Assembly: GCA_002118135.1 (NCBI GenBank)
Contig: BDIU01000068.1
Coordinates: 1 to 64,000, forward strand
Direction: 5' to 3'
Source of the DNA: Trebouxia sp. TZW2008
Lineage: Eukaryota; Chlorophyta; Trebouxiophyceae; Trebouxiales; Trebouxiaceae
Length of the DNA stretch: 64,000 bases
In this document: positions 6,001 to 63,820 of the stretch, in pieces
Layout of the letters: every line of letters starts with the position of its first letter
How positions within the stretch are numbered: position 1 is the stretch's first letter
Translations under genes and position numbers: made by a program
Notes under the pieces: model-generated
Databases searched by the model: none
Told to the model about the DNA's origin: nothing
Seen by the model: the letters and a program-made list of their open reading frames with translations, nothing else

Positions 6001-9000
6001 ACTTCTCTTTCATTGATGCCACAAGACATAAACCTTCCATGATGTGATGAGTTATACAGAATCTGGGCTGCAGCTGCAACAAAGCTCACTCACGTGTTCT
6101 TGCTGTTTTGCCTATAGCTGAGTCGCACTGACGTTTTCATTATGTAACTGGTGATAGTGAAGAAGATGTCATACAGAACTAGTCTTCTTCTTTGTCTGTG
6201 ACATAAGCCAACGACAATGCTCCCAAATTACATTGGACTGTCCTGACTCAGATGTTGCCAGAATGCAGTGATTAATGCCCATTTGCATTGTTTGTTGTCA
6301 TGAATGTCCTGTCATGGCAGTGCTTATTGCAGGGCTCGCACAGCATTCCAAGGATGTTCTGCCGCCAAAAACAGCGGTGCAAAATTGCCATGGCATAGAC
6401 AGCCTGAGCTCTGCCGTGTGGCAGTCAGATCTGAAGCCCTGCTGGAATGGAGACCTGTTGCTTCTTGTGCCTGCATTGTCCATCATCACGAATGTCCTGT
6501 GATAGCAGTGCTTATTGCAGGGCTCCCACAGCCTTCCAAGGATGTTCTGCCGCCAATAGTAGCAGTGCAAAACTGCCATGGCATAGACAGCCTGAGCTCT
6601 TCTGTGTGGCAGTCAGATCTGAAGCCCTGCTGGAATGGAGACCTGTTGGTTCTTGTGCCTTCCTTGTCAGCGGCTGGGGGAGACAAGGACGCTGACTTGG
6701 CCTCGGAGCTGGACTTTGCACGTCTCGCAAGCTTGCTATGGTACATCTCGACTGTTGCATTGTGCGTCATGAAAGCTTGCTGTGGTACAAGTCAAGCTCA
6801 CATGAATGTTGCTTAGTGGCATACATCCCCACATGCATTGCCCACCAAGGCTAACTAAGCAACCCATGATTGCAGCCATTTGCAGCTGTGCAAGCTTGAT
6901 ATCTGAAGGCACACTTAGACACAACTCCTCTCTTGCTTGACACATACTGTAGTTGCACATTGCTGCAATCTGGGCTGCTATTCTAAATCTGGCAGCATAC
7001 CGCAAGAGACATTTGCTCAGCAGGACTGCAGCATGAAACATTCTTGATCAGTGCGTCAATGTGTCATAATCATCAAGAAATATGTGTGTGATATAACAAA
7101 ACAGAGCATACGGAAGTGTTCCAAAGTGTGCATCACCAAGACGCAGTGTACGTTGTGGTACGCCAGATGGACACGCCAATGCATCAGTCATGGTATACAA
7201 ATGTGTCAGCGTATCCATCATTCAAGTGGAGAGTATGCTGATGTACTGTTCTTGATGAAATTGACGCTTGGTTGCTCGGCTTGTTTGCTGAGGTGTAGAT
7301 CATTCGCGATTTACGTCACAGTACATCATCAAACTGATGCTCTGTAGGGCATCAGGGCAGCCTATGACGGCAGCCGTCTCCTGTCTTGGGAGTGCACCAG
7401 GGCAGAAGGGCTCAGACCTCAGGACAAGGTGTTGGCTGACAAAGTGCAGAGGCAGCACTGATGACATTGTTGACATGCTCCCACAGGTAATGCTGTTCTG
7501 TACACTCTCATCAATCATGCTGACAGTGTGCTGAGTCATCCGGCAACCCTGTATGTTGCAGCAAAATACCTGCAGCTTGCTCTCAGCTTGCCCATGACCT
7601 TTCAACACGTTGTCATGCGTTCAACATTTACGTGGTAGGAGACAGTGCACTGCACTGTGCATGCTTTCGGACGTCCACATTCCACATTGCGTGCTGAGCA
7701 GATGTGTTGCAAAGGTGGTATTGACAGATAGCAGAAGGCCTGCTGGCAGTGTCAAACTGATTCAAACAGAGCAGCCAGCTAAGCTGCTGACCATTTGCAC
7801 TCTGAAGCGCAAGTGAGAGTCTGCAGGGGTCTCTCTGATGCTATCTGCATGCAAGTTGTTCACACCTGTGTACTGTGATGGCCTCTGTTGCACTGCATGC
7901 AAATTGACAACTTTGGAATGTACTGGCCTCTATTGAGCTGTCTGCATGCAAATGAACAGCTGCGAAAGGCACTGACCTCTGTCTGTATGCCCCAGGAATC
8001 TCGTGACAAGCTCAAGGCAATGGTGCCAGCTATGTTTCAAGGAGGCAGCAGCGCAGGCCACAGTTATATACTGGCTTTTGTCACTCTTGATCCTCAGTCT
8101 GGTAAACACCATGCCTCCCTGTTCTGGACTTGCTGTTAGTCATTGAAAGTTCCAATTTGAGACCATGCTTTGGTTGCAGTCAAGTGGCATGGCATGTTTT
8201 GGGTGCATCAAGTTACAGGCGTGCTTTAGGCTGCACAAATCAGGGACATGACAATCTGACTGATTGCTTGGTCATTGGATAAGCTGTGCATGACCTTGCT
8301 CACTGGCATGAACGTGTTTCATTAGACCAAGATTATGTCAGCCATGCCATTTCTGTTCACATACATTCCCTTGTGCTGTCATCACATTCATTGCAGTCAG
8401 CAGACTGTTGCATCGCTGTACAATGGCAGTGACAGGGTTACAATGGCAGTTCTTGTTGATGCTCTGTTACGCAGGTTGTGGTGACAATGCAGCTGAGTCC
8501 GAGTCAACAGTGTCAAGCAGCTCCAGTGATGGCTCATCCATAGATACATGTGCAGACAGACAGCATGCGAGGCACAGCCTGAATGATCCAAGCAGGTAAG
8601 CAGCAATGGCACAACGCAGTATTGGTACCAATGTCTGCTTGCAAGCAATTTTGACAGTCTCTTGTCTGTTGATGCAATAATGAGTATAGCAGACTCTGCA
8701 AACACAGTCATGCCTTGTGCTTGCTTGCAACAAGGACAGGGTTCAGTGCAATGCCTTCCGTGCCATTCTATGTATCTCTGTGCTGCGCTGCTACAGTTTT
8801 GTGCACCTGGCAGGTTTATTTTGCCAATTGCTGCGTGCTTATTACAGCAAGGACGATGTTACACATGGTGTTGTTTCAATTGAAATGATGCACATCAACA
8901 CTTTGTCGACAGTCTGCAGGAACGGGATGAACCCTGTTCCACGCCTGCCCAAAACTTTCAAGTCAGGGTTGTGCTACTCCTGGATACGGGGGGAAATCTG

Positions 9001-9052
9001 CCGTTTTGGTTTGCATTGTCACTTTGCACATGGACAAGCAGAGCTACGCTGA
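3043..9052 (+). CDS. Gln-rich, RS-rich CCCH zinc-finger protein (5' end not found)
   Basis: Likely a nuclear RNA-binding protein. Exons that join in phase: 3043..3101, 3135..3230, 3307..4903, 5206..about 5921, 6521..6740, 7348..7486, 7576..7634, 7750..7812, about 7938..8101, 8475..8595 and 8920..9052 (stop TGA). The 532-codon exon is Gln/Ser-rich and ends with a basic APKKRRFT nuclear-localisation-like motif. The next exon has a long Arg-Ser region, as in splicing factors. The last exon encodes one finger with spacing C-x8-C-x5-C-x3-H (CYSWIRGEICRFGLHCHFAH), typical of mRNA-binding CCCH proteins. The middle exons match no family I recognise. The start of the 7938 exon and the end of the RS exon are uncertain. 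The initiating ATG should lie upstream of 3043. Exon 6521 has a duplicated copy just upstream. Confidence 0.6.
6286..6663 (+). repeat. 188-bp tandem duplication spanning an exon start
   Basis: Two copies with a 188-base period: for example gaatgtcctgt at 6302 and 6490, and the acceptor cttattgcagggctc in both. Each holds intron sequence, the acceptor and the first two thirds of the exon (SKDVLPP...NCHGIDSLSS...WQSDLKPCWNGDL). Only the second copy runs on to a usable donor at 6741, so the first is an intron-resident relic. The relic is still open in the same frame. Confidence 0.85.
7846..7990 (+). repeat. Three degenerate 48-bp tandem units
   Basis: Units begin with tgcatgcaa at 7846, 7894 and 7943 and share a downstream gcctct or gacctct block. 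They lie just upstream of the exon ending at 8101, and the third unit may include its start. The pattern fits repeated duplication across that acceptor. Confidence 0.6.
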
Positions 9053-10323
9053 TCTATTAGTACCATTTTGCAATTGGTGTTCCCTCTGGGGCGCAGGGGA
9101 ACACCTCGTACCCAGTGCTCATACCGTGAAAAGATGTTCCCTTTGGAGTCCGAATGTGGGACCGGCCAACCAGAATGTCTCAAGACTCACATTGTGTGAT
9201 CCTGCTGCATTAGAGCTGCAGTCAAGACCTGAGCCGCTTTGTGCTAGCTAGCGCTCTTGGATTTTAATGAATGAGCCAATGCATGCATTACATACTCAGT
9301 ACAGCAGGATGAAAATATCGCTTGACAATGTGCCGCCGTTCAAAAAAATGAACCATTCACAAATGGATGTCAAACCATCTTTCAACATTGATGCTGACAA
9401 ATGGATTTCCTTATCTTACTATCGGCTGCCAAGTTCTGCTTTCTTTTGCTTCCGAATTGCTGTCCTTCTTGTTTTCCTGCTTACAAGCCTAGTAGCCTAA
9501 AAGATGCCATGATGACACCTGATACAATATCAAATAACTTGCAATGGCCAGACAAGACACCAAGGCCCGCTTAACTTTGTCTGGCATGTGCAATCGGTCT
9601 ACCCGCTGCTAAAGTCGCTGCTATTCACATCCTTTGGCAAGCTTCGTTGACTTCGGCACTGGTCATGTCTGCACACACCACGATCCCAGGGATATTTCCG
9701 TCCCTGGGATGGTCCCTGGGTTACAGCTAGACAAGCTGGCAGTGCTGAGGTGGCGGCAGCTACATTTACGTTCTTGTTTTGGCAGCGGAAAAGATGAATA
9801 AAGAAGACGAGCTCTCGAGTTTGCACAACGTTACGTGCGGAGTCTTTGCAGCAGCATCGCGCAGAAGTCGAGACATAGTCACTTGCAGACGGTCAGCAGC
9901 GTCGACGCAGCAGGCAGGCGCAGCCGCATTCGGCGTGAACCCCTCGCCCAAACAGGCAGCTGACGCTGCTTCGGATCTCGGCGCAAAGCTTGTCATCGAC
10001 CCGTGCTAACAGCCCTCGCGAAACCTTTGAAAAGGTGCTTCCTTACATTGTCACTTGTTTTTGGCCGATTTGATGTCTAGTTCTGGCTGAGCTAGTCCTT
10101 AGTGGTAAATTCGTGGGATGTCCTCGGGGTGCCTTGAGCGAGTCTGTTGATTCGTGGCTAAGCAGCTCTCTTCTCGTCTTCATCATGCATTGTGACATCT
10201 GAGTCACCTAGCTGCTACTCTCGTCGCATGTGTGGGCACACGCACGCGCAAATTACTTCGGATCTGCGAGTCTCGTTAACTGTCTGTTCGCGCAGCGTGC
10301 TAGCTCTGCAGTTTTGCGTCGTC
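9053..10323. other. Intergenic region between the CCCH and HARE-HTH genes
   Basis: No supported gene. The 9053..9500 part is probably 3' UTR of the upstream gene. The stretch 9770..10010 is GC-rich and open on both strands (for example 9779..10009 on plus), which may mark a promoter or first-exon region for the gene downstream rather than a separate gene. A short inverted pair (ccagacaa ... ttgtctgg) lies near 9548..9584. Confidence 0.3.
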
Positions 10324-10579
10324 ATGCCCGAGACGAATCGCACTCAAGGAAGTACATAATTTACCTTGTTTCAGCATGCATGCATGATGGCCCCCCATCA
10401 AAATCAGCCTGTACCCCTGCTGTGCTAACCCTAATTCAGCTACCACTTCCAGGTCTCAGGCACCAAAGACTTTGACTCTGCATAGTTTCCACTGCAGGCT
10501 GCATGACCCGCGAGTCTGACTTCACATGTGCATCTACTCAACGTCAAGACTGCATCAGTGTTAACACTGTGCCTTATGC

Positions 10580-10703
10580 ATTGCAGGCTGCATATCCCAC
10601 AACTGATTCCATTGCAGGCTGCATATCCCACAACTGATTCCATTGAAGGCTGCATATCCCACAACTGATTCCATTGCAGGCTGCATATCCCACAACTTAT
10701 TCC
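10580..10703 (+). repeat. 31-bp unit repeated four times
   Basis: Copies start at 10580, 10611, 10642 and 10673 and read attgcaggctgcatatccc and on. The unit matches the real acceptor plus first bases of the exon at 10855 (cattgcag followed by gctgcatg). It looks like an echo of that intron-exon junction lying upstream of it. Confidence 0.85.
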
Positions 10704-10859
10704 ATGCACCTGCCAATTTGATGCAAGGACCACTGCAGTGCTAACGTTGTACTTCTATTTTGCAGGCTGCTCCTGCAGGCAGCAACACTTCCACTTGCTC
10801 ACTGCCTCAATGCCCAGCTGCACAATTGCTGACGATGTGCCTTCTGCATTGCAGGCTGC

Positions 10860-13800
10860 ATGTCGCGCAATCCAGCCACAGGCGCTATGACAACAGCAGG
10901 GGCAGCCCAATTGAACCCAGCTAGCCCAGACACTCCTGGCCTAACAAGCAGCAGAGGCCGTCTGGTAAAACCCAAGGTGTGGGATGACGGCACTGAAGCT
11001 GTGCCAGCTGTAGGTCAGTCCCTGTACACGGCTTCTGCATCAATGCTGTGCAGACACATGACCGTGGCATCATGTTGCAACTTGCATGCACCCTCAGCCT
11101 GGCTGGCTGGCTGACAACATTTAGCTAGTCTGACCCATGTGCCTGACTCTGTACGTTATTCACAACCCCTGATCAAGCCCAACATGTGGGAGGATGGCAC
11201 AAAATCTGTGCGAGCTATAGGTCAGTCCCTGTACGCGGCTTCTGCATCAATGCTATCCAGACACGTCACAGTTGCATGCACCCTCAGCCTGGCTGGCTGA
11301 CAGACGACATGTAGCTAGTCAAACCCATTCACCTGACTCTGCATGTTATTCACACCCCCTGATCAAACCCAAGGTGTGGAATGATGGCACAGAAGCTGTA
11401 GGTCAGTCCCTGTACACGGCTTCTGCATCAAAGCTGTGCAAACATGTCACAGTTGCATGCACTCTCAGCCTGGCTGGCTGGCAACATCTGACTAGTCTAA
11501 TTCATGTACCTGACTCTACATGCTACTCACAATCCCTGGTCAAGCCCAAGTTGTGGAACAGAAGCTGTGCCAGCTGTAGGTCAGTACTTCTCAATGCTGA
11601 TGCTTTCTAAACAAATTCTATCACCCAGCTAGGTGCAACAGAAGCCACAGACTTTCTCAACCTCTCAGCGGATATTCCTGTGCATTGATGCACTGTCATA
11701 CCCCTAGCAGGATGAGTAAATCTCATCAGCAGTTGTGTGCTGATTAGGATGATGGCAATGATGACTGCCTTTCATGACTTCACTCAGGCTACCTTTGCTT
11801 GAAACGGAAATTAGGGGTTGCCACAATGTGCTTGCTGCAGCATGGCAGTTGCTGCACGCAAGGCTGTGCTGATTTCTGCAGGACATGACACGATTGCATG
11901 TACCCACAGCCAACCTGTTTGGGTGCTGACTGATTACTCACGACTTGAATGCAGCATGAGTCAGCTATAGTGACTTCTTGTTGTAACGACTGCTTTGTTC
12001 ACCATCAAAATTGTCCTTGACCTTTTCGAGAGCTTTTTGATCAATTTGCCTGCTGCAGCTAGGCATTTCCATTAAATTTCTTTGGTTTTGAAGGGTTCAG
12101 AGGGCAACTGAAGCCTGCAGCAAAGGAGGAGGAAAAGGAAAGGGAGATTGAGTCAGACAAGCATCATTGCATGTACACATGCTGAATTCATAGTCTTGCA
12201 TAATATGGGCAGCAAAGTCGTCAGTGGGATTTGCTGTGTTTTGAAGGGTTCAGAGGGCAACCAAAGCCTGCAGCAAAAGAGAAAGAGAGGGAAAGAGAGA
12301 AAGAGCGGGAAAAGGATAAGGAAAAGGAGCCTGCTCAAAGCGAGTCAAGCCATGAGCTTTCTCAGCAGCCAAAGACAGAGCGAGCCAAATGGTGAGACAC
12401 TGTAAGCTTCGCTGCAGTCAGCAGTAATGCGTGTGTAGTGCTGTGTGGAAACATTTGATGTGTGCAGGACAACCTGCCCAGGCACTGAGGGTTGTGCTGT
12501 TGCATTTGTGTTGTATGATGATATGTTTTGTATCTCATGTGCATACCAAAGCTGCATGCAGCAAATTGCTGACAGGCATCACTTCATTAGAGGACATACA
12601 GACATGACATACTCAGAATGCTGAACTGCTGCCATGCAGTGTGTTTGGGAAGTACATGTCACAAAGCCAAACAGGCAGCATCTGCATGCAATTCTTGTCA
12701 AGTTCAAATTCAGCCACTGAGTCATTGCTTGATCGCTGTCGTAGGCGGCCAGCCTATGCGAACAGCCTAGCCAAGCGCGGCAGTGTGCCTATCCGCGACG
12801 AGACCGGCCGCTTCATCGGCGTCCGTCCCAAGACGGCAGCCGAGCGGCTGCAGCGGCAAACCATGGGCAGCGGCGGAATCTTCAAGAGCGCGGCCGTGCA
12901 GGTGCTTAGACTGGAACGCCGGCTTATGTCCACAGGTGAGCCACACCCTTCCTGCTGGCCTGACTGGGTGATGCAGATGAGGTTTGGAAGCCAGATCATG
13001 CTGTGGCAGTACTTCCAATACCTGCTTCTTGGGGTGAGTTCTGCTGGCCAGCTCACTTGTCACTCATCTCGCTTGTTGTCTGGTCTTTGCACTGTCTATT
13101 TGCATGCACAGGCTCACTAGGTTCTCCACCTTTGCTAACTTTTGCTTGTTGACAAGTGAGCCACCTTTGGAAGTGCAACCTGCTCACAGAGCCAGTAACA
13201 CTGGAGCCTGGAGCTCTCATCACTTGCCTGTCTGACAGCGTGATCATGTCTTGCAGGCGATATTGCAAAGGTTGCATTGCAGCGTGGCCTGATCAAGTGT
13301 CAAGGCAAAACACCCGAGGCCACCATGGCTTCAGCCTTGTACACAGATGTCAAGCGCAAGGAGGGCCATTCCATCTTCATTAGGCCCCATGAGGGGCTGT
13401 TTGGGCTCAGAGAATGGGCTGACAAGGGACTGGTGTTCAAGGTGATAACAGCATCAAGTCCGCATGTTCAGCCTTTTGGACAGCTTTCTGACAGCTTGCC
13501 AGTAGCTTTACATCAGCCATTCAGTTTTGCCCATTGTGGTCATGACAGCAGCATTGTGCAGTTGATCCTCATGAGCTGAGAATTGCAGCTCATGAGGAGT
13601 GCAGCTCAATCTCAGCTCAAGCAGAAGGCCATTCCCACAAAGGTGCAAGGGCTTTGAATGGTTGACTTATGCAAATTGCAACTATTTGCTGCATTTGTTC
13701 AGCTTGCCTTGCAGTGTTTGACAGTACCAACCATCAGCATGAATCTTGACATAGGGCAAAGCTGTAACATGGTCTGTACCCTCATGCTCTGTGTTTGAAC

Positions 13801-16800
13801 GTTCAGGACCAATCGGATTTTGCCAAGATTTGGCAAGACACCATGTACAATTGCTGGACCTGTGCTAGCAGTGAGCATCATTGTTGCTGTTGCTGTTGCT
13901 GCAGGTGATGGAAGATGATGAACACTATGTGGATGACCCCAAGAACCCTCAGTTCCAGCATCATGGGGGCGAGTATGCCTATCAGGGGGGCAACAGTGGG
14001 GGCGACTTTGCGGGAGAGGGCTTCCAGGGAGACCATGAAGGCTATGAAGCTTCAGGTGATTGTCATGTACAGTATTTTCTTGACAAGACAACTGCACTTG
14101 TTCCCAAAATCACAGGTCAATACTGAGAAGCATCAGTGCAGACGGAATGCAGTGAGTTGCTCCCAGCTGTGCCTCTGGCAATGGCAATATCCTACCATTG
14201 CACGTGCCTAGATCGACAGGTTGTTGTACAATACACCATGCCTTCCGCTGACAATCTTCTTGTTCAAGCCTGTGCATTTGTTTTGGAAGATTCTCATGGT
14301 TAATTTGTGTGTGTAGCTGGTGACATATATTAGTCTGAAAGCCAGCGTTGTTTTTGTGAAAAAGGCGTTTGGGACAATGATGTGGACATGCACAAGCAGT
14401 ACCAAGATTGCTTAGCCTTATTTGGAATTTCTCACGTGTATGTTGTACTTTGGTGTCTGTGCAGATGGTGACATATATGGGTCTGAGGGTCAGTACCACC
14501 GCTACGAGGAAGGTGACTGGGACGATGATATGGAATTGGATGAGCAATACCAAGATGTCTCCTCAGGCCAAGTCTACCCCAGAGGTAGATCTGGCCGCAG
14601 CTTTGGCGCAGACAGATATAGCGGTGACAACATGGGCGGTCATGATGATGACGCTTACGTCACCCCTGAAACCACTGCACCGCTTCAAGCTGCAGACCAG
14701 GTGACACTTCTTCATCAGCTACTGGTGTTGTTTGGTCACATAGAGATCCCCTCTGTACGTTGTCAACAGCTGCAGCATGATCCTACTGTATAGCATTGTG
14801 AATATAATGAAGCATTTGCGCGGATAAATACGACAGTGACAACATGGGCGGTTTTGATGATGCTTATGTCACCCCTGAAATTACTGCATTGCTACAAGCC
14901 ACAGAACAGGTGATGCTTCTTCCTGACCTTGTTGGGTCTGTGCAGCCATAGCTATCTTTCTTGTGAAATGGCGATCATCCCCAGCACACTTCTTGTTCAG
15001 GCCAACAGCAGTACATCACACTCAATCTTCGACGCTTTGCCTGAAGTCTTGCAAAATCAATTGCTTGTCTGCTTAGCGGTTGTCAAGTGAATGCTGTAGA
15101 CAAGCACATTGCGTGCAAGAAGATCTTCGCGTGGCAAAACTCATCAAAGATGGTACTTGACTCATTGCGGCTGGCCAAAGCGCGTAATATCTCTCTTTCT
15201 CTTACGTAGCATTGGCGCCGTTCCGCAAGCATTCATGTCTGCTTTGCTTCCCTGATTTTGTTGTCTGTTTCTTCAAAGTGTAGACTTTCTGAGCCAATGC
15301 AGGAGACACCACAGGATGCAGTGAGTGGGGCCAGACCAGGGTCAGCAGCCCGCTCAGGAGGGCGGTCAGGGGGGCGGTCGGGGGGTCAGGCCAGATCAGC
15401 GGGGGGTGCCCACCAGGCTGACAGCCGCATGTCACCTGCCACTGATGAAGAGAACAGCAACATCATGCTGCTGCTAGATGCTGCTGAAGAGTTGCATAAG
15501 ACTGCGTCACATGATGGGCCAGAGCCCTCGACTGCTGCCACTCATGGTATGACTCTTCTTTAGCTGTCTGCATTGTCCTGGCCTCTTCTGCAGCCTTCTG
15601 CCCATGTTGACGTTACCTCTTCTTCAGCTATGTGTTTTGTCCTTGCTTCTTCATCTGTGTCTTGCTGCTACTGGATGCTGCTGAAGAGTTGCATAAGACT
15701 GCCTCACATGACGACCCTGAGCCTTCCACTGCTGCCACTCATGGCATGCCTCTTCTTGAGCTGCATCCTTGCCCCTTCCTCAGCTGTCTGTACCATTTTG
15801 GACTCTTTTCCAGTGCTTTGCTGCTGCTAGATGCTGCTGAAGAGTTGCATAAGACTGCCTCACATGATGGCCCTGAGCCTTCCACTGCTGCTACTCATGG
15901 TATGCCTCTTCTTCAGCTGCACTGTATGCATCAAATAGTACATCCAGGACTTTGCTCAAGTCACCCAACAGCCTTGTTCAAGCAGCACCTAGGCACTGTC
16001 AGAGATGAAGACTGTCTCATCAACACTCCACATCCAGCAGATAACATGTCCATGTTATGTTTCCCACAACCAGACAACAGCACTGTCCTACAGCTTTGTC
16101 AAACATCAGATGCACGCAGTATTGCAAACACTGAGCCTTTGGCTCTGTTAGGCGTCATGTGCAGGTTGTGTCACAAGCGCTACAGATGTGACGCTGGCTG
16201 ACAAAAAGTCAGCACTGGTATCATGTGCAGGCGGCATCACAAGCGCTGAGCCTCATGAAAGGCAAAGGGACAATCCTGCCTACCCATCCAAGCAGCGCAG
16301 GCTGACTAAGGAGCACTTGACCCCCAAGGCGGGGCCTAGGGGCAACCTCAGGGGGGGTCCAGGCAGGGGCGGCACCAGGGGTCCTGGCACCCGTGGCAAA
16401 GCCAAGATGCTGGCAGATGAAAGTAGATTCTCCCGGCCTCACCCTCTTCAGGTACTTGGTTTTGCTTCACAGTCTCAGGGCAATACTGCATGCCCAAGTC
16501 ACATCAAACGTGCCAGATCAAAATATGCCATTGTTCTGCATACGGCACTGATTCTGACATGCAAGGGCCGGGCCCGTTATGGAGCAGCCCCCACCTGCCC
16601 TGCACCACCATGCCTCTTTCCCAGAGACTGTTACTCAATTGCAGATCGATGTTCAGCTCACTGAGACTATGAGGATCGCTGCATGCAGGCACCAGACAGT
16701 AACAAGTTCAGGGCAGGCACAGACGCTGCAGCAAGGGCAGGGCCGATCATGGAACAGCCTCCGCCTGCCCTGCCCCACCACGCCTCCTTCCCAGAGACTG

Positions 16801-19315
16801 CTGCTGAGCTGGTACTGGACCTCACTGTGGAAGGTCACAATGCAGGTATGGTACCACAAATTGCTTGTTCTCTTTGGGACGGTGCTCATGCTGGGCAAAG
16901 ACACATCAATTTACCATTACCACAAGCAGCATCAATCCTTGCCATGACTGCTGCTGAACTAGTGTTGGACCTCACTGTGGACGGCCACGATGCCAGTGAT
17001 ACAGTGTTGCAGTGTGTGGCTAGTCCAATGCATGAGGTCAGCTGAACTGTGGCCCATGCACGCAGCTGTTTCACTGTGACGTTCCAACAAAGGTCATTGT
17101 GACAGCTGTCTGCCTGTACAAGCAATGTAAAGCACGTGCTCTGTTGCATGCAGGCAGCTCATCTACGGCACACACAGGTTTTGGGGACAGGGCATCTACA
17201 GGCGGCCCTGACCAAGTCAACATTCTCAACCTGCCCCTGCCAGACTTTGAGTCCATGTCAGGTGAGGCACCCATGCAGCCATGTGGCATCTACATCATTG
17301 AGGTTTGTTTGATGAGTCAGTCACTCCCACGATCATTGATGCTGAACAAGCACAGCAGCAGCCTTTGACTGCATGTGCCTTTGATGTTTGCAACTTGACT
17401 TCCCATCATCTGCTTGTGCCCATGAGTGTGTCATCAGGCGTCACACTTGTAATGCTTTGCTGTGCTTGTGCACGTCTTCACAATGCAGCACGGTCTCTTT
17501 TGATCATGCAGTTCTTGGCATGATGCGTATGCAAAGGATGTGTGTCCTTTGGTGGGAAGCAAGGTCAATAAGCAGACGGACATCTCGAGAAGCTGCATCT
17601 GCTCTGTTTCCTGACTTAAGTGACTCAATTCTGAAGTTGTTCATTGATGCATGAGCTGACTGATGAAATGACTTGTGCATTGACTTACCATCCACTCTTT
17701 GTGAAGCTCATCTGCTGACATAGTCCCCCATGTGCACAGGCACCAGCGCAAACTACCCTGAGGAGCGTCCAGAGGACATGGATCCTTCAGAGCCTGATGG
17801 GATTACCTCGCCCCCCACCGCCCGCCCCAGCCTACCCCCCCACATGGCCCCCCCAGGCTCTGTCACCAAAGGCCGCCTGCAGAGCCTTGAGCAAAACCTG
17901 CTCATCTTGGAACGCAACTATGGAGCCACTCACCCACAGGTATGGCTTCTAAGCATGTTAGCTCTGACCGCAATTTCAGCTTGTATATGCGTTGTGACTG
18001 GATGCTGCAATTCATGTTCAAGCTTCGGCCATCAACACATGAAGCGTAGCCAGTAGCTGTCTATGCATAGCTCGAGTGTTGGTTTTGTTCATCAAGGAAT
18101 GTATAGCTGGAGTCAACTCCCACAAGTCTGTGTGCCTGCAAGCAATAGTAGGCACACAGCCTTGTGGGAGTCTATTCAAATGGTCGGCAAGCTGCATCGA
18201 CTGTAATGCAAGCCCTGGCTGTTGACGCTGTGCAGATTGGCAAAGCGTGGGTGCTGCTGAGCAAGATCTACCAAAGCTACCACGTACTGGCTATCAAAAG
18301 CTTTGCATGCATTGGACCCTTGTTGCATCAGATGCCTTGAAAGGCTTGCTCGCGGCCCAACTCTGAATGCGATCTTCACGCTGACTCACCCCCTGACTGT
18401 TGTTGCTGTATAGGTTGGCAAAGCATGGCTGCTGCTGAGCAAGATATACCAGAGCAGCCCCGCCCCAGCCAGCCAGCTCATGGCAGAAGCAGCCCTAGTC
18501 AGGTCCTGGGAGGTTTACGCCTTATGCCAGGGTGCGGCACAACCTGAGGACCTGACCCCTGCAACCGTCCAGAGCTTCAGTCACCTGCTGGAGAAGATTC
18601 AGCGCAACCCAGACAAGATGGTGGGGGTTCACATGGTGAGCACGCACCAAACGCTGCAGCAGCAGCATCAGGCTGTGCAACATCAGCGTCTGCTGCAGCA
18701 GCAGCAGCAACTGCAGATGCAGCAGCTGCAGCAGCTGCGGCAGCAGCAGCAGCAGATGCAACTGCAGCAGCAGTTGCAGCGGCTGCAACCCCAGCCGCCG
18801 CCGGTAGGGTCTGCAGCAGCAGCAGCTGCTGCTGCTGCTTACAGCCCATCTGCTGCAACTCCCTTACAGCAGCAGCAAGCACAAGCTGCACAGACACAAC
18901 TGCATCAGGCTCAGTTGCACGCTCATGCTCAAGCGCAGCTGCATCAGCAGGCGCAGCCACAGGGGCAGGGCCAGGGGCAAGGGCAAGGGCAGGTGCAGGG
19001 CACTTCTGGGATGTATGGGGCAAGGCAGTGGCCGGCTGCCTATGCACCCGGGGCAGGGCAGTCCAGTACGGCCTTCAGCCCTCAGCCCAGCCTTCATCAG
19101 CAACTGTCTGCTCAGCTGCATCAGCAGCAGCGGCAGCAGCAGCAGCAGCAGCAGTATGTGCCAATGCAACAGCAGCAACAGCAGGCGTTGGCACAGTATC
19201 AACAGTCACAACCTCAGCAACAGCAACAGCAACAGCAGCAGCAGCAGCAGTCAAATTTGGCAACTAGTGTCCCAGTCAGTAATTGTAGTAACACTGACGT
19301 TCAAGGTGCGTTAGG

Positions 19316-19322: not shown

Positions 19323-19368
<46 letters not shown>

Positions 19369-30913: not shown

Positions 30914-30945
<32 letters not shown>

Positions 30946-31556: not shown

Positions 31557-31557
31557 A

Positions 31558-39290: not shown

Positions 39291-39324
39291 CGCAAGTGTC
39301 TGGTCAGAGCATGGCACAGTCACT

Positions 39325-47300: not shown

Positions 47301-50300
47301 CTGTTTCTTTATGCAGCTCATAAGGCGCATTGATGTGCCAGTGAGGGACATCAAGTGGAGTGACAGTGGCGAGCTGGTAGCCATCATGAGTGAGACCTCC
47401 TTCTACATCCTGAGGCTAGACAGCGAGGCAGTCAACTCTTTCCTTGCCTCAGGAGAGGAGGCTGAAGACGACGGCCTTGAAGATGCCTTCGAGCTGTTGA
47501 ATGAGGTCTCAGAGCGTGTCAGAACAGGTAGGCTGCGAATTTCACCTTTGGAGAAGACTTACTACAAGGACATGTGCACTGTGAAGTCAATGGATCTGGG
47601 TATCTTGAAAAGTATCCTGAGTGTCAACGCGCATCCAAACAAGCCAGCTGCATGTAGGTCTCTGTGAGCTTTTGAATGAGGAGTTAGAGCATGTCAAAAC
47701 AGGTAGGTCCTGCATTTGCTGCCAAACAGTTGTAGGTAGCACAAGCCATGCTAGATGACAATGACCCCTGACGCCTGACGCTCGTCCTGACGTTCAAGAA
47801 CTTCCAAGTCTGCTGCTGCAATCTACATCACAGTGTATTTTTTCTGTGACAGCTGTTTTAGTCACACAGATAAGTGTCCTTGTGTTGAGTCGTTTCTACT
47901 TAGAGGTACCACTGCAGCGCAAGCACAGTGGGCGGGTTCAAATTGCATCGTCCTCACATTGGGAATATGCTGAAACAGAAAGTCTCTATACACAGAAGTC
48001 ACTGCATAGAGGACGAACATGTTTTTGAAGCCGAAAGTCCAATACTAGGACAGATATTTGAGGTAAAGAGCCTTTGAACTGCTGAAAGAGGTCTCAGAGC
48101 GCATCAGAACAGAAAGATTGCATGTCGATGCCGTTGAGCTGCTGCATTGCGTGTAAGAGTGCATCAAGATAGGCAGGCTGCATGTATATGGCTTACAGCT
48201 ACATACTGAGGCGTCACAATTCAGCAGAACAAATAGCCTGCAGCTGCTGTCATGCAGCATGCTGAGGTATACAGGCTACAGAAGTGTGTCATGCAGCATG
48301 CTCATGTAGTTGCTGAAGAGGTGTCATAGCGTGCTAGAACAGGCAGGCTGCATGTCAGAAGTTTCAAACACTGGCTGAGGTGTCAGAATGCAGCAGCACA
48401 AATAGCCTGCAGATGCTGTCATGCAGCATGCTGAGGTACACAGGCTTCACAACTGTATTGTGCAGCATGCTCTTGTAGTCATGAATGAGGTGTCACAGCG
48501 TGTCAGAACAGGCAGGCTGCATGTTGGAAGTTTCAATTACTGGCTGAGGTGTCAGGATGCAGCAGAACAAATAGCATGCAGGTGCTGTCATGCAGCATGC
48601 TGAGGTACACAGGCTACACAAGTGTGTCTTGCAGCATGCTTGTGGAGCCTGCGCACCTCAGCATGTATGACTGCTGCAGGCATTGCTGCTGTTGTTACTG
48701 ATCCTCTTGTGGCTGCTTGCAAGCTTATGGAAACGTCAGAAAGGCAACACGCATACATACAGACATACATACATACATACATAATAACGCATTCTAGTTG
48801 GGCTCAAAGGCCTTGCTAGGTATGTATAGTCACCAAGCGACAGCAAGGCAAGACAGCAGCAGACAAAGTGTGTCATCTGCGAGACGCTCAGCACCTGCTG
48901 CATCTGCATGGTGCAGATCTTATTTGCGCTACGTGGCTGTTGATGCGCCCCACGCAGGGTTGTGGGTCGGGGGCTGCTCCATCTACCACAACAGTGCGTG
49001 CTTGCTGAAGTATTGCGTGGGCGGGCAGGTGACCACCGTGTTCCACCCAATTTGCTTGTTGCATTGTGACGACACCCGTGTTAATGCAGGGTTGTGGGTT
49101 GGGGACTGCTTCATCTACAACAACAGTGCATGGCGGCTGAACTACTTTGTAGCTGAGGCTGTGCCACCATGTTCCACTTGCAACAACCAACAAGTCAAAA
49201 ACTCATCTGTGGCAATGCAGGGTTGTGGGTCGGGGATTGCTTCATCTACAACAACAGTGCGTGGCGGCTGAACTACTGCGTTGGCGGCGAGGTGACCACC
49301 ATGTTCCACCTGGACCGGCCCATGTACCTGCTGGGCTACCTTGCCTCCCAGTCCAAGGTCTACCTCATAGACAAGGTATGCTGACAAAAACATATGCAAA
49401 TATACTCAGACTGTGAACATCACAGCAATATGCATGTATACTCAGACTGTGAACATCACATTTGGTTTGGCTTTCTTGCCTCTGGGTCTTTGGATTGTGC
49501 TGGTCAAGCTGCTCTATGTCTTTCAATGCTGCATGGTTTACAGCAAAACATAATTGCTGCAAACACAGAGCACTTTCTCAAGCATGTGTCAGACTTCTGT
49601 TCAGCTCATGTCTTAACAGCAGTAGTTTGGCATTGTCAACTAGATACTGCTGTTGTCCGGGCTTGGGCACTGGACGCAACGCTGCATGCTTCGTAGAAAA
49701 TTTGTGACTGACAGCACAATGACAAAACTGCAGCAGGCTTCCAACCAACCAGGTCTTGTGTTCAGGAGTTTGGCGTTGTGAGCTATACCCTGCTGCTGTC
49801 GCTGATAGAGTACAAGACCCTAGTGCTGCGTGAGGACATGGAAGCTGCCCAGCAGCTGCTGCCCTCCATTCCCAAGGACCAGATGAACAGCGTGGCCCGC
49901 TTCCTAGATGCTCGCGGCAGAACTGCAGGTTTGACACCTTCTCAGCAAGATCATGCATCTTTGCAGTTAGTTACGGTTGGTTGCGTGATGAGTCAACAAC
50001 TGCAATTTTTGCTCAAAATCGCATGCAACATGTTTGACTGCCAGCTTGACCTGACAATTTTGCACAAACAATGAGAGAGTGAGCGAGCGCGCGAGCAAGC
50101 GAGCAAGCCAGCGAACAAATTACTGATTGATTGGCTGAATTAGCGAGCATGCAGCTGGATGGTGAATGAATGCAGATGCCCTGGAGGTGGCCACTGATCC
50201 TGACTACAGATTTGAGCTGGCAGTGCAGCTGGGCAAGCTGGAAACTGCCCTTCAAATTGCTGAAACTGCTGACTCAGAGGGCAAATGGCGTCAGCTCAGC

Positions 50301-53300
50301 GAACTGGCCATGTCTTCAGGCAAATTGCAGGTGAGTCGTGGCCAGCATGCAGCTCCAGCACAGCCTTCTGCCTTGTTGCAAGTGCAACATAGCATGTTAG
50401 CAACATAGTTGTACCCCTGCTCTAGGCCTGAGGCTGCTGAGTCAGATGGCAAATTGCGCCAGCTCAGTGAACTGGCCATGTCTTCAGGCAAATTGCAGGT
50501 GAAATGTGGCCAAACTGCGGCTCCAGCACAGTCTCTTGCCTTGCTGCAAGAATGCAACATAGCTTGTTAGCAAAATAGTTATACCCCTGTCCTAGGCCTG
50601 AGACTGCTGAGTCAGAAGGCAAACTGCGCCAGCTCGATGAACTGGCTATGTCATCAGGCAGATTGCATGTAAGTGCTGGCCAACATGCAGAAACGCATGC
50701 ACAAGGCTGGTGAAGCCTTTCCTTCAGCACATTGCGTGCAACAGAGCCACCGATGTGAACAGCAAAACAGTAGTCTGCTTCTGACCATATCAAAGTAAGG
50801 TTGTTGATAGCAGGCTGCATTCAAATCCAACAGCAACCGCCGCTGCTGCTGCTGCTGCTGTATCAGTCAGGGGCAGTGCCCACAGCACGATGCTGATGCA
50901 ACTCCCTGCGCATGGCATGCAAGTGGAATGGCAATATGACAGCGCATCTGTGGCACTGTCAGACACAGTAAAACTTCTGCCACAGGTTGCAGAGCGGTGT
51001 ATCAGCAGGGCTGATGGCTGAAAACTGGCTACTGCCACTGTACTCACCCAAGGGCTGTGCATTGCAATTGAGCATCAATGGCACTGTCGCTGTATTGCTG
51101 TGCATTGCAACTGAGCAACAATGGCACTGTCGCTGTATTGCTGTGCATTGCAACTGAGCAACAATGGCACTGTCGCTGTATTGCTGCGCATTTGCATGAT
51201 GCATTGACCCATGTTACCTTTTGCCACAGAGTAAGGTGGCAACTAAACACAGAGTTGCCACAGTGTTGCAGAGCAGCATGTGTGGAAAGCAAAGCATCTA
51301 TCTGGGTTGCTGTTGCTATACTCAGCCAAGGGCAGTGCATTGCGACTGAGCGTCAATAGCGTATTTGCTGTGTTGCTGTGCATATGTATCATTGACCCAT
51401 GTCACCTCTTGCCACAAGTTGCAGAGCGGCGTGTGTGGAAAGCAAAGGACCTATCTGGGTTGCTGTTGCTATACTCAGCCAAGGGCAGTGCATTGCAACT
51501 GAGCGTCAATAGCGTATTTGCTGTGTTGCTGTGCATATGTATCATTGACCCATCTGAGTCTATCACAGGTTGCAGAGCGGTGTATGTGGAGAGCTAAGGA
51601 CCTATCTGGGTTGCTGCTGCTATACTCAGCCAAGGGCAGCGCAGACGGCATGAAGAAGCTGGTAGACCTCAGTAAGGAGCAGGGCAAGCAGAACGTGGCC
51701 TTCCTGGGGCTGTTCCTGCTAGGGCAGTTGGATGAGTGTGTGGATCTGCTGGTGTCTTCTGGCCGCACGTCTGAAGCTGCATTCTTTGCTCGCACCTATG
51801 TGCCTAGCAGAGTCAGTGAGGTGAGCAACTTGCCCCTGCTGTGCGTCGCACAGTTGGTGAAGTAAGCCACTTTGCTTTGCTTCCTTCTAAAGTTGGACAA
51901 GTGTATGGACGGCCTGGTGTCTTCTGCCCTTTTCCCTTGAAGCTGCATTTTCTGCCTACAATTACACGCCTAGCAGAGTCTGTGAGGCAAGCAACCTGGC
52001 CCTGCTGCCTTCTCTACAGCAACCTTTCCTCACTGCAAGTGGTGTAGTTGCAAGTGGTGTAGTTGCTCAACAACAAAGTCTCTGACATCAAATTCACGCC
52101 CTGCAATGAAACCAGCTCTTCAAGCCATTGAAGGACTCGATGTCGATGTCTGACACTGTGTTGTGCAGCAACCACAACACTCAGCATCCTGGTCACAGCT
52201 GGTGCAGTTGTGGCAAATGGAGCTTTCAAAAGTTGGTACCAACCTTTGGTTGATAGTGCACGTCAGGCTTTGACTTGATCTTTGCAGGCCTTAACTTGCC
52301 TTTCAGGGCAGTGGGGTTCTGCAAAGTCCTGTCCAGTCAGGTGGTGCAGCTATGACATGAGGAGTTGTCCAAGTTCAATGCTGAGGCTGCTGAGTTCCTG
52401 CAGAGTCCTTACACCTTGTCACAGGACATGAGCAAAACGCAAAGTTTGACTGGCAAGGCGTTTCTTCATTGCAGGAGGTGCAGCTGTGGCGTAAGGAGGT
52501 GTTCAAGATCAACGCCAAGGCTGCTGAGTCTCTGACCAACCCTGCACAATATGTCAATCTATCTCCAGATCTAGATCTGTTTTCATTGCAGATATTGACC
52601 CCACTCACTGTATACCTGACTGACTGACTGACTGGTTGACTGACTACCTGACTCTGCTCACCTCAGGTAGTGCAGCTGTGGCAGAAGGAGCTGTCCAAGA
52701 TCAAGACCAAGGCTGCTGAGTCTCTGGCCGATTCCACACAGTACACGAACTAGTTCCTACACTTACTATGTATTTGTCATGCATTTCAGCCATTGACTGA
52801 CCAAAGGACCTTGTGCTCATTTCAGGTAGTGCAGCTGTGGCATATGGAGCTGTCAAAGATCAATGCCAAGGCGACTGAGGCCCTAGCTGACCCCGCACAG
52901 TATGCCAACCTGTTCCCTGACCTAGACCGGCTCTCACTTGCAGATTGTCACCCAACTGACTACCTGCCTAATTGACTGACTGACAGACAGACTGACTGGC
53001 CCTTTGTTCACCACGGGTGGTGCAGCTGTGGCGCTAGGAGCTGTCCAAGGTCAATGCCAAGGAAGCTGAGTCTTTGGCGATCCTGCACAGTGTGCCAACC
53101 TGTGTTGAAGAGCTGGACTTGAGCTGCTGTGTCGCCATTGACTGACTGACTGACCAACAGACTGCTGCCTGCCCACAGGTGGTCTAGCAGTGGTGCAAGA
53201 GCTTGCTGATTTTAGCCTTTGAGGTTGCGTGTGGCTACAACAGCTGTCTTTCACTGCAGGTGGTGCAGCTGTGTCGTAAGGAGCTATCAACGCTCAATGC

Positions 53301-55555
53301 CAGGGCAGCTGAGTCTCTAGCCAATCTGCACATTACCCCAGCCTGTTCCCTAAGCGTATGGTGATATTCAGTGCAGCAAGTAACAGAAACGTGTCCTGTT
53401 ACAGGTGGTGCAGCTGTGGCGCAAGGAGCTATCCAAGATCAATGCCAAGGCGGCTGAGTCCCTAGCGGACCCTGCACAGTACGCCAATTTGTTCCCTGAC
53501 CTAGACCTGGCCCTGAAGGCTGAGCAATATCAGAGACAACAGCGCAAGCACACCATCCCTGCTCGGGAGTTCTCAGACTATGAGAACAGCACCTACGCCA
53601 ACCTCATCGAGGAGATCCAAGGTAAGCACAATGAATTCAACAGAAATTGCGACAATCCAACAACTGCCTGAACGCTGCAAAGACGGCACAATGCTGTTTC
53701 TTTTTAGCAAACTGCCAATGTGTGACGCTGTTGCCAGCTACATGAAATATGTATTCTTTGTGTTTGCAGGCATGACAATGGATGCTCACAGTGGAGCTGA
53801 GCCGCTAGCCAATGGCAATGCTGAAGTGGGACCCCACAGCGCTGAGGGGCACGCACTGCCACCCACCCCCTGCCATTCTTGCTATCCCTTGTCAGCAAAG
53901 TGCTGTATTGGCATCTTGTTGCCAGCTGTGTCAAATTTGTGTCAATAGAATTTGGTGTTTGCAGGCATGACAATGGATGAAAGCAATGGAGCTGGGCAGC
54001 CAGATGCCAATGGCAATGCAGAGTCGGGACCCCACAGCACAGAAGGGGACTCCCCTGACACCCATCTGCATGCCCAAGCCCCCCAAGAGACCCCAAATCT
54101 GCTGGACCAACCCAGGTAAGTGCTGCATCACTGTGTGTTTCTATGTACTGGCTTTCCTTACTGAACACCATCGTCACCTTTGCATGCAAGCCATCTGGTT
54201 TGCAGGACAGGATAGGTCGAAACGCTGTCATGTGCATCAAGGCCCATCTCAGCTGCATGATAACAAGCCCTTTCGCGATGGCTTGTGCCAATCCATAGCA
54301 AAAGGCCTTGGTATCATGCAGGCCGAGATTTGGCACTTCAGCCACAAAACAGGTGAACAGCATCAATTCTCATTGCTGGAGTCATATTCTGTCGCTTAGG
54401 CCCGAAATTAATTTTTACGCCTCACCCCAAACTTTGCGTTGCAGGCAAGCTGACATAGGGCAGTTGACTCTGCCCTCTGGCGCCATGAGCCCTCAGCAGC
54501 GTACCGAGCCCTATAACAAGGGCTATGCTCTGTTGCCGCAGCTACCCTGCCCCAATTGACATTTGTTGCCTCACGCCGTACTTTGCACTGCAGACAAGCT
54601 GACATCGGGCAGTTGAATCTGCCCTCTGGCGGCAATGGCCCTCAGCAGCATAATCAGCCCTATGGCCTGGGGCTAGGCTCTGCTGACGCTATCTCTTCAG
54701 CAGCTGGGCAGTCTCCAGCTGAGCCTGCAGAGTTGTTTCCTGAAGCCCAGCCACAATCTGATGAAGCTGAAGAGTTGTTTGGTAAGTCGTGCAACATGGG
54801 AGAAAACCTGACAAAAGTGAACGCCGTCAGGCGCCATGAGAGGTGCCGCTGTGAGTGGAAGCACTCTGGGGTCCATATACCTGCTTGTTGTCTTCATTCA
54901 TGTGCCCATTTCTGTGTTTGACACTGCTCAGCTTGAGCCTGCAGAGCTAGTTACTTCAGCCCACAATTTGATAGTTATTTGGGACACCGTGCACAAGGCT
55001 GCATGAAATCTCATCATGCGCCCTCAGACAGGAAAGATCTGAAATGTCTATGCGATTATGCCACAATGGAGCCTCCGTGAGCAGCAACAGCTGTCTGTCT
55101 TTCTTGCTGCTGTGGCTGTGCTGGCAGATGCCGGCTTGTATCCTTGTGGCAAAGCACATCTGACACATGCCTGAGATCTACAGTGCTCCAGCGCAGATTG
55201 ATGGCAAGTCGCTGTCATGTTGTAGCGTTGATCTTGTTGGTTGCCATGCAAAACTGCCATCAAAGCAGGGGTTGAAATGACGAGCCACCCAGAGGGCGTC
55301 CAACAGGACTTAAAAGCTGCTGCATCATGCGCCTGCATGCTTGAGCAATTATAGCTTCAATTGATGGTATGTACCTAGCTGGACCTGCCGAGCCTGTGTA
55401 GCATGACTGGTGCATGAGTGAGTGAATCAACGAATGAATAGCTTCAATTGAATTGGCTTGCAGGCGATGAAGACCTAGGAGAGGGCGAAGGAGCTGAGGT
55501 TGATGATGCTGACCTTGAAGATGACTGGGGTTTAGACAACGAGGACATGGCTTGA
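41344..55555 (+). CDS. COPB2: Coatomer subunit beta' (beta-COP', COPB2)
   Basis: Core subunit of the COPI coat, which drives Golgi-to-ER retrograde vesicles; its N-terminal WD40 propeller binds dilysine cargo signals. All 21 exons join in phase into 984 residues: 41344..41346, 41425..41445, 41577..41638, 41710..41801, 41939..42150, 42455..42568, 42948..43032, 43345..43494, 44495..44609, 45142..45295, 46098..46309, 46696..46846, 47317..47527, 49221..49375, 49766..49928, 50176..50330, 51569..51820, 53405..53621, 53965..54115, 54594..54781, 55464..55555. Exon 1 is only the ATG. Two WD40 propellers fill about residues 1-600 ([49 protein letters not shown]). A helical solenoid follows ([52 protein letters not shown]). 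The tail is acidic ([17 protein letters not shown]). It is a little longer than usual (about 910) because of the C-terminal linker. Nearly every intron carries relics of neighbouring exon edges. Confidence 0.97.
43592..43891 (+). repeat. Three relics of coatomer exon 8 end
   Basis: Copies of the [20 protein letters not shown] segment plus donor at about 43592..43648 ([19 protein letters not shown]), 43713..43777 ([20 protein letters not shown]) and 43834..43891 (decayed). Each ends cacag/gta or gtg. Period 120-160 bases. The real one ends at 43494. Confidence 0.9.
44354..44430 (+). repeat. Relic of coatomer exon 9 start
   Basis: After a gtgtgtgcag acceptor it reads [20 protein letters not shown] against the real [20 protein letters not shown] at 44495. 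An in-frame stop is present (tag at about 44370). Confidence 0.85.
44755..45141 (+). repeat. Relics of coatomer exon 10 start
   Basis: Two decayed copies (exon-like starts at about 44817 and 44946) precede the real exon at 45142. Each repeats the intron's 3' part (cttggctggcttt..., gatatgcag or gtcatgtgcag) and the first 40-60 exon bases ([13 protein letters not shown] against [12 protein letters not shown]). Confidence 0.8.
45800..45890. repeat. cactg-rich low-complexity stretch
   Basis: gcactgcattgcactgcact and on: a degenerate five-base repeat with internal palindromes (tgcagtgca) inside a coatomer intron. No coding value. Confidence 0.8.
46955..47165 (+). repeat. Relics of coatomer exon 12 end
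   Basis: First copy (about 46960..47047) reads [15 protein letters not shown], then shifts frame by one inserted base, and ends ggcaaggttagc like the real ggcaaggtaagc. A second, more decayed copy (ttatcattgggcctccggcg) is near 47130..47160. Confidence 0.85.
47655..48640 (+). repeat. Five or more relics of coatomer exon 13 end
   Basis: The segment encoding [13 protein letters not shown] plus its acag/gtagg donor recurs in decayed form near 47665, 48075, 48135, 48310 and 48485. Units also share tgcagcatgctgaggtacac and similar intron blocks. All lie after the real exon end at 47527. Confidence 0.8.
48740..48830 (-). mobile_element. Short LINE-like 3' tail with (catg/cata)n run
   Basis: On minus it reads tatacatacctagcaaggcc and then ends in a (gtat)n run (48755..48785 on plus reads catacata). 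It resembles the tacctagct...gagcc 3' ends of the LINE family at 21340, 39400 and 55375, but only about 45 bases are shared. Confidence 0.4.
48958..49220 (+). repeat. Two relics of coatomer exon 14 start, 131-132 bp period
   Basis: gcag acceptors at 48957, 49089 and 49220 are each followed by ggttgtgggt. Relic 1 reads [20 protein letters not shown] and relic 2 [20 protein letters not shown]. The real exon at 49221 reads [20 protein letters not shown]. Relics keep frame for 30 codons or more. Confidence 0.92.
50425..50668 (+). repeat. Two relics of coatomer exon 16 end
   Basis: Real end: [19 protein letters not shown] at 50330. Copies at 50425..50498 ([19 protein letters not shown], followed by gtgaaatg) and 50595..50668 ([19 protein letters not shown], followed by gtaagt). 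Period about 170 bases. The second keeps a strong donor. Confidence 0.92.
50986..51568 (+). repeat. Three relics of coatomer exon 17 start
   Basis: Copies begin at about 50986, 51264 and 51419; the real exon begins at 51569. The third reads [20 protein letters not shown] against [20 protein letters not shown]. Units include the following gtgcattg..gagcgtcaa block, so exon pieces and intron pieces alternate. Confidence 0.9.
51059..51190 (+). repeat. 43-bp unit, three copies
   Basis: gcattgcaactgagcaacaa (first copy gcattgcaattgagcatcaa) with cactgtcgctgtattgctgt recurs at 51059, 51102 and 51145 with an exact 43-base step. It is a secondary tandem expansion nested within the exon 17 relic array. 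Confidence 0.9.
51888..51989 (+). repeat. Relic of coatomer exon 17 end
   Basis: ttggacaagtgtatggacgg and on mirrors the exon part encoding [20 protein letters not shown], with small deletions that break the frame; gtgaggcaag stands where the real gtgaggtgag is. Confidence 0.8.
52196..53404 (+). repeat. Array of about eight relics of coatomer exon 18 start
   Basis: The real exon starts at 53405 with caggtggtgcagctgtggcg. Recognisable copies start near 52200, 52341, 52475, 52667, 52826, 53016, 53179 and 53260, each with (usually) a cag acceptor and up to 110 bases of exon encoding versions of [20 protein letters not shown] and [13 protein letters not shown]. Spacings run from about 80 to 190 bases. 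Several have in-frame stops, one lost its acceptor (cacgg at 53015) and the copy at 52826 is intact for 36 codons. (gact)n simple repeats lie between units. Confidence 0.95.
53770..53880 (+). repeat. Relic of coatomer exon 19 start
   Basis: [20 protein letters not shown] against the real [20 protein letters not shown] at 53965, with the same gtgtttgcag acceptor, period about 195 bases. No donor follows at the matching place. Confidence 0.88.
54445..54555 (+). repeat. Relic of coatomer exon 20 start
   Basis: gcagGCAAGCTGACATAGGG and on mirrors the real gcagACAAGCTGACATCGGG at 54594, then shares ctctgccctctggcg and ccctcagcagc. An in-frame TAG marks decay. Confidence 0.88.
55360..55440 (+). 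mobile_element. LINE 3' tail in the last coatomer intron
   Basis: ggtatgtacctagctggacc, a short spacer, then a gagtgagtgaatcaacgaatg tail. Same 3' end type as at 21340 and 39400 (minus). A very short 5'-truncated copy. Confidence 0.5.
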
Positions 55556-62700: not shown

Positions 62701-62918
62701 TAAAGAAGCTGAAAAGGCAAAAAGAAAGGGGATGAAGGAAATCAAGAAAGCAAGACTTGCTAGGATCGCAGGTATCTGAACCTTCTACACTTGCTCACAT
62801 TGTCAAGCAGTCCCTTGGTGTGTTTACTGATGGCACCACTAGCAGCAGTGTTAGGTGCGTGTGGCCCAAGTCCTGCCTTAATGTGATATTCAATCATCAT
62901 AATAATAATAATAATAAC

Positions 62919-62988
<70 letters not shown>

Positions 62989-63684: not shown

Positions 63685-63744
63685 GTGTGCTTCTCTGAGT
63701 GCTCTCGTTCAAGCATCACTGCGATTCTTCATGCGCAATGCAAA

Positions 63745-63820
63745 AGAGGCAATGTGTGAGACTGCAAGGGTCTTGCAGCAATTAGATCTTGCCAGTGAAG
63801 AGCTGATGATAAAGGTACAT
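63745..63820 (+). repeat. Relic of exon 6 end of the right-edge gene
   Basis: LDLASEELMIK followed by gtacat mirrors LNLASEELMLK followed by gtgtgc at 63684. It lies downstream of the real exon. Confidence 0.8.

Follow-up and report, generated by a model that had tools for sequence, protein, structure and literature searches.

Many introns of Trebouxia sp. TZW2008, a green alga that forms lichens, carry tandem copies of the edges of their own flanking exons, and we hold with good confidence that these introns have grown by recurrent tandem duplication at near-random positions, purged from exons but tolerated within introns and across exon-intron junctions. The pattern was studied in a 64-kb window (contig BDIU01000068.1 of assembly GCA_002118135.1, positions 1 to 64,000), which is one stretch in a genome of 68.5 Mb and 527 contigs, and in genes sampled elsewhere in that genome. 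According to the proposed mechanism, short segments (median 140 bp, 5-95% range 71-207) would often be duplicated head to tail, perhaps through replication slippage or break repair. Selection would remove copies lying wholly within coding exons, while intron-internal or junction-straddling copies would be tolerated, with the copy still joined to the exon serving as the working splice site and the other becoming intron. The intronic copy, referred to below as a relic, would then drift free of constraint and fade, and repeated rounds would leave longer introns, with echoes of exon starts upstream of the real exon and echoes of exon ends downstream of it.

Exon junctions were set independently of the repeats, using a spliced protein-to-genome aligner written for this analysis. 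For the COPB2 (beta'-COP) gene, a model with GT-AG introns was obtained first with human COPB2 as the query. Models based on the proteins P0121, from a close relative, and P0123, from Trebouxia sp. C0010, agreed with each other in an identical set of 20 exons. The COPB2 protein is 95% identical to that of Trebouxia sp. C0006 and 92% identical to that of C0010 (96-99% of the query covered). For a second gene, encoding a HARE-HTH domain (PF05066), models from P0241 (Trebouxia C0009) and P0242 (C0005) gave identical internal exons at 12745-17939 and differed at the ends. In the P0242 model a PF04248 domain precedes the HARE domain, and the P0241 model lacks PF04248.

Self-alignment of the window yielded 34 direct-repeat arrays; at E 1e-5 it listed 66 repeat pairs, of which a few are inverted or widely separated. 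Twenty arrays lie on modelled junctions: 12 in COPB2 (5 donor and 7 acceptor, with one further array being intron-internal) and 8 in HARE-HTH (4 donor and 4 acceptor, 3 of each remaining after filtering on exon length and splice site). One of the eight HARE-HTH arrays copies the exon interior, 27 nt inside the exon. The two genes and their arrays are as follows.

41425..55543, plus strand: COPB2 (beta'-COP) gene, 20 exons and 19 introns, first codon outside the model; spliced alignment to P0121 and P0123
43434..43874, plus strand: COPB2 donor array, intron 7; exon 7 end (43494) and three downstream copies, 43591-43653, 43717-43780 and 43837-43874
44335..44555, plus strand: COPB2 acceptor array, intron 7; copy 44335-44414 upstream of exon 8 (start 44495)
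44803..45180, plus strand: COPB2 acceptor array, intron 8; copies 44803-44839 and 44934-44984 upstream of exon 9 (start 45142)
46762..47162, plus strand: COPB2 donor array, intron 11; exon 11 end (46846) and copies 46961-47054 and 47122-47162, the intron parts without recognisable homology
47480..48640, plus strand: COPB2 donor array, intron 12; exon 12 end (47527) and copies at 47666, 48066, 48308 and 48482, lying before and within a 170-bp tandem array
48954..49312, plus strand: COPB2 acceptor array, intron 12; two copies upstream of exon 13 (start 49221)
50260..50690, plus strand: COPB2 donor array, intron 15; exon 15 end (50330), unit 168
50981..51643, plus strand: COPB2 acceptor array, intron 15; copies upstream of exon 16 (start 51569)
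51726..52007, plus strand: COPB2 donor array, intron 16; copy 51891-52007 of the exon 16 end (51820)
52196..53509, plus strand: COPB2 acceptor array, intron 16; six decaying copies of the exon 17 start (53405), some with stops
53757..54064, plus strand: COPB2 acceptor array, intron 17; copy upstream of exon 18 (start 53965)
54419..54689, plus strand: COPB2 acceptor array, intron 18; copy upstream of exon 19 (start 54594)
10896..18635, plus strand: HARE-HTH (PF05066) gene; spliced alignment to P0241 and P0242
10962..11585, plus strand: HARE-HTH donor array, unit 207, exon end 11013
12085..12300, plus strand: HARE-HTH acceptor array, exon start 12247 in one model and 12267 in the other
14306..14556, plus strand: HARE-HTH acceptor array, exon start 14465
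14599..14922, plus strand: HARE-HTH donor array, exon end 14700
15463..15921, plus strand: HARE-HTH donor array, two copies, exon end 15546
16544..16800, plus strand: HARE-HTH copy upstream of exon 16689-16845, exon interior matched only
16785..16993, plus strand: HARE-HTH donor array, exon end 16845
18213..18455, plus strand: HARE-HTH acceptor array, exon start 18414

The longest array in the window is that at the acceptor of COPB2 intron 16, where a seventh piece (52196-52230) matches another copy only. An earlier note, made by reading the window, had described at least 25 arrays in six genes, with exon starts echoed upstream and exon ends downstream. The arrays are real, and the placement holds at the modelled COPB2 and HARE-HTH junctions, but these two genes are the only ones anchored by a homology-based model, and the note's count is unconfirmed. 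Its expectation that such copies confuse gene finders was borne out in COPB2, which a simple finder ended at 52753 inside one relic exon and restarted in another at 52844.

The survey was extended to genes outside the window. Chaperonin genes (11 genes) were picked by family, blind to repeats, and together with COPB2 gave 12 genes and 122 introns. At a score of at least 40, the upstream intron echoed the exon start in 10 cases and the downstream intron echoed the exon end in 15. At the same threshold none was found, for starts or for ends, in reverse-complemented introns (0/122 each), shuffled introns (0/122 each) or introns of other genes (0/366 each). The intron on the wrong side of the exon likewise gave 0/110 each, with a top score of 39. 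A second set, comprising HSP70, HSP90 and MCM genes, had echoes in 26 of 108 filtered introns. Pooling these with the chaperonins and two AAA genes gave 25 genes outside the window, COPB2 being excluded, with echoes in 47 of 221 filtered introns and 18 of the 25 genes. The count of introns holding partial copies of flanking exons, which the earlier note had suggested, places the pattern beyond the window. The arrays in these 25 genes comprised 26 acceptor, 27 donor and 14 internal ones; dinucleotide-shuffled introns gave 0 in three runs, and introns swapped between genes gave 1, 1 and 0.

The loci studied are part of the genome-search matches, selected for clear multi-exon hits. Left out were six of the eight AAA regions (five scoring <500, and VCP_C31, which was weak), one of the 13 HSP/MCM regions (MCM6_C48), the final intron of DNAK_C150, and introns with odd acceptors or flanking exons shorter than 20-30 nt. 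The C150 locus had shown repeated hits before selection, and contributes 3 of 55 echo introns. Repeat pairs within 1.5 kb in 26 gene regions were predominantly direct (197 direct vs 24 inverted), and two more 10-kb stretches, chosen regardless of genes, held 6 and 11 arrays.

Many introns in many genes are affected, as would be expected if introners or another dispersed element had inserted into introns. Every array, however, copies its own exon. A genome search with 48171-48640, in COPB2 intron 12, matched only itself and the exon 12 end, and the intron 16 array returned exon 17 itself with short matches to a CTGA-type stretch elsewhere. Altogether, three stretches searched across the 68.5 Mb (very common words skipped) were found at their own locus only, bar the short simple-repeat matches of one, and 39 array spacers had no match in the other loci compared. 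Judged by these matches, the duplicated sequence in the cases searched appears to be local and not drawn from a dispersed family, and we give insertion of such an element almost no credence. Near-identical copies could be collapsed in an assembly, and the arrays might be suspected of being assembly artefacts; yet best pairs that are 70-93% identical and carry neutral private changes would not be created by mis-joining, and the chance of an artefact is close to negligible.

The placement of the arrays was compared with a simulation of random duplication of ~140-bp segments, followed by purging from exons, decay and the same detection. A wholly exonic duplication alters the protein, while one straddling a junction need not alter it if splicing uses the exon-joined copy. 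The effect of this filter is seen in the data: the junction rate predicts 11.6 wholly exonic arrays, and there were none (Poisson p 9e-6). Junctions were crossed by 65 of 80 observed arrays (81%), and the simulated share was 82% when introns were cut to ≤200 bp and 96% at 110 bp. The exonic fraction of each unit was consistent with random placement at present intron lengths (KS p 0.37) and at 200 bp (0.40), and mismatched at 110 bp (0.03). In the model, the observed placement needs no special machinery if introns were shorter at the time of duplication.

Several observations weigh against duplication that is fully random. At present intron lengths the simulated crossing share was 57-61%, and three such runs reject the observed share (p 3e-5 to 1.4e-4); moreover, the 43.7 kb flanking the gene models, which is unannotated, holds 3 arrays, fewer than uniform duplication suggests. 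Since simulated crossing is too low at present lengths, either ancestral introns were shorter or junctions were mildly favoured, and the simulations suggest that a mild preference of duplication for junctions may exist. The special link to junctions drawn in the earlier note is largely unneeded beyond such a preference. A splicing-directed process, which would either target duplication to junctions or copy or renew the exon as far as the splice site, would account for the high junction share (64-65 of 80). We consider it unlikely, as the excess is gone with introns of ≤200 bp and the exon share of the unit is that of random placement. Copying through a spliced transcript was tried as a specific form of this idea and is unsupported. 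The flanks of 100 copies had a median identity of 0.37 to the neighbouring exon compared to 0.35 when shuffled; the copies stop short of that exon, with 2/100 reaching an identity of 0.7 vs 1/100 shuffled. Two-copy arrays aligned over the full unit in 10 of 81 cases (from overlapping window slices, so that a few were perhaps counted twice), and breakpoint microhomology is unreadable because the array edges are eroded.

The intron-derived parts of the units bear on the same question. Tandem duplication across a junction predicts that these parts are copied along with the exon edge, and their homology was clear (z ≥4) in 31 of 64 arrays, which also argues against a splice-directed origin, and intermediate (z 2-4) in 15. 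Over the whole unit, 33 of 54 arrays fit head-to-tail duplication. The earlier note's proposal that duplication across the junction turns the spare copy into intron is supported for most arrays. The fit is nevertheless incomplete. No intron-part homology (z <2) was detected in 18 of the 64 arrays, and the ratio of aligned length to spacing was 0.60, against 0.83-0.94 predicted by the tandem model. The intron part was too dissimilar in 21 of 54 arrays at the best estimate and in 5 of 54 at the upper bound, 4 of these having an intron part no better than shuffles. Similarity between relics was 0.60 in the intron part and 0.78 in the exon part, the latter being higher in 21 of 23 arrays, and the simulated difference is only ~0.02. 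In four arrays inspected, homology ends 2-8 nt past the splice site despite an exon part that is 83-93% identical; in the donor array of COPB2 intron 11, for example, copies match to ~8 nt past the donor and then stop. Quicker turnover of insertions and deletions (indels) in introns may explain most of this dissimilarity. That some echoes come from a process copying or refreshing exon sequence to the splice site and little further, such as exon-guided conversion or repair, is improbable in our judgement. If true, an exon-refreshing process would mean that DNA mutation bears an imprint of splicing boundaries.

The better preservation of exon-derived parts than of adjoining intron parts would be expected if the relics were alternative or mutually exclusive exons under selection. 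Mismatches between relics and real exons at codon positions 1, 2 and 3 were 0.139, 0.109 and 0.245, compared to 0.208 in aligned intron parts; this third-position excess is what constraint on only one partner would produce. When changes in 23 arrays with at least two relics were polarised on the real exon, those private to one relic were spread 100:95:125 over the codon positions, and those common to all relics 8:5:30. The synonymous share differed accordingly (109/320 private vs 30/43 all-relic changes, p 1.6e-5). At sites present in at least three relics (7 arrays, with cleaner polarity), private changes were 37:46:39, and 28.7% were synonymous vs 29.3% expected. We conclude from these substitution patterns that the relics look unconstrained, and that the real exon is constrained. 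Two results temper this conclusion: mixed sites, at which a change is common to more than one relic but not to all, showed a third-position bias in the 23 arrays (18:6:39), and with two-relic arrays included 34.1% of private changes were synonymous vs 27.7% expected with transition bias (p 0.015).

In 21 of 22 arrays, third positions also have more mismatches between relics, which would favour alternative exons. Coding constraint was rejected as its cause, as private changes were even over codon positions after polarising, and we read the excess as probably inherited from the real exon before later copies arose. Fewer mismatches were seen at the AG of relics than nearby (6/82 vs 36/207, p 0.03), although alignment ends favour matches there; GT was not conserved (14/83), and neither dinucleotide is clearly retained or purged. 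A stop or indel breaks 42 of 94 relics, and 40 of the 78 with at least 10 codons. Relics are partial exons in the cases tabulated. Seven COPB2 homologues were aligned to the model. Over residues 1-828, insertions are absent from six of them, including two from named Trebouxia; the seventh, P0216 from Coccomyxa, carries 13 extra residues where exons 11 and 12 meet, as well as some gaps. We regard alternative exons under selection as very unlikely. The earlier suggestion that the process supplies decoy or alternative exons finds no support in the apparently unconstrained changes and frequent breakage of the relics. Divergence, which the note had proposed to compare with distance, shows no rise away from the exon, the farthest copy being more diverged in 9 of 22 arrays.

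Growth of introns by recurrent duplication also agrees with their length. The median was 569 bp in introns with an echo (n=47) vs 307.5 bp in those without (n=194; p 1e-12, COPB2 excluded), in line with the earlier note's statement that the process lengthens introns, and recognisable repeat copies make up 15% of intron bases (14,611/97,405, COPB2 excluded). The description of the process as ongoing stands only in part: duplication appears to have recurred over time, but high recent activity is unsupported. Best-pair identity per array was 70-93% (maximum 92.9%, 65 arrays; top single pair 93.9% over 33 bp), and no junction pair reached 95% identity, a further point against steady duplication, as with simulated steady input from age zero, 36 of the 326 junction arrays detected were at ≥95%. 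The shortfall means either a slowdown of activity or the loss or collapse of near-identical copies. The youngest-looking arrays in the window are near-identical short-unit repeats at 10579-10705 (31 bp), 51054-51192 (43 bp) and 62899-62988 (3 bp).

Protection of the 5' part of genes was considered and not upheld. In the first gene set, 0/49 introns in the first 500 coding bases had echoes vs 28/83 further on, and this was not repeated in the second set (3/18 vs 13/62). A post hoc subset of cytosolic full-length genes gave 0/51 vs 25/107. Separately, introns are short near the gene start (~70-150 bp, e.g. window 41425-42150) and longer downstream, with rho of 0.45 and 0.43 in two gene sets (26 gene models).

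Further arrays in the window, without a homology-based gene model, lie at 6284-6668, 21.4-22.1, 27.0-28.8 and 60.8-63.8 kb; the sequence at 61.0-62.0 kb resembles a CCTTCA-rich minisatellite. The first of them is the following feature.

6284..6668, no strand assigned: 188-bp tandem duplication, from self-alignment

Self-alignment gave no tandem arrays in 30001-40000, where retroelement sequence sits. This region includes an open 822-aa frame for a retroelement gag/aspartic protease (31558-34026, minus strand) and near-alike reading frames on both strands at 35228-35937, which suggest an imperfect palindrome of ~0.6 kb. One member of a 493-bp inverted pair also lies here (36461-36953); the other, 98.4% identical, is 35 kb away at 1414-1906. 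A piece resembling PF04248 occurs in a false gene-finder model near 37118-37353 (minus strand). A single open frame at 38121-39335 (minus strand) encodes an FAD monooxygenase, 93% identical to one protein and 55% to that of Apatococcus fuscideae, with many bacterial relatives among the matches listed.

Discussions of intron length mostly centre on transposons. Among the matches listed from the openly accessible literature, no title or abstract described introns lengthening genome-wide through tandem duplication. Events of this kind are already known, and it is the density of arrays that is unusual. A tandem duplication across an intron-exon boundary is described in a potato RdRp gene (PMC4974935), where, as in Trebouxia, the spare exon part lands in the intron; there the intron is new, whereas in Trebouxia existing introns grow, in a large proportion of genes and repeatedly per junction. 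Tandem genomic duplication is also a recognised route to new introns in the AGGT model (PMC3443670), which shares the head-to-tail duplication and a spare copy hidden by splicing. In that model, however, an exonic AGGT is duplicated to give new splice sites, unlike Trebouxia, where no wholly exonic arrays were seen. Mutually exclusive tandem exons (PMC9741552) are likewise exon copies in tandem, but are functional isoform exons, unlike the partial and apparently unconstrained copies seen here. Introners (PMC9860276) also alter the intron content of many genes in one genome, but do so by copying one element across genes, whereas the Trebouxia arrays copy their own neighbourhood. Trebouxia genomes of similar size and GC have been published (PMC11523091, PMC12712428); in their main text the word 'tandem' occurs 0 times in either, and 'intron' 0 and 1 times, respectively.

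About one fifth of the introns of conserved genes sampled in Trebouxia visibly record growth through small tandem duplications. The living exon edge next to its dead copies provides a natural pair for measuring neutral mutation, and the arrays offer a ready test of how splicing chooses between two near-identical sites. For annotators of such genomes they are also a warning, as a simple gene finder took relics as exons.

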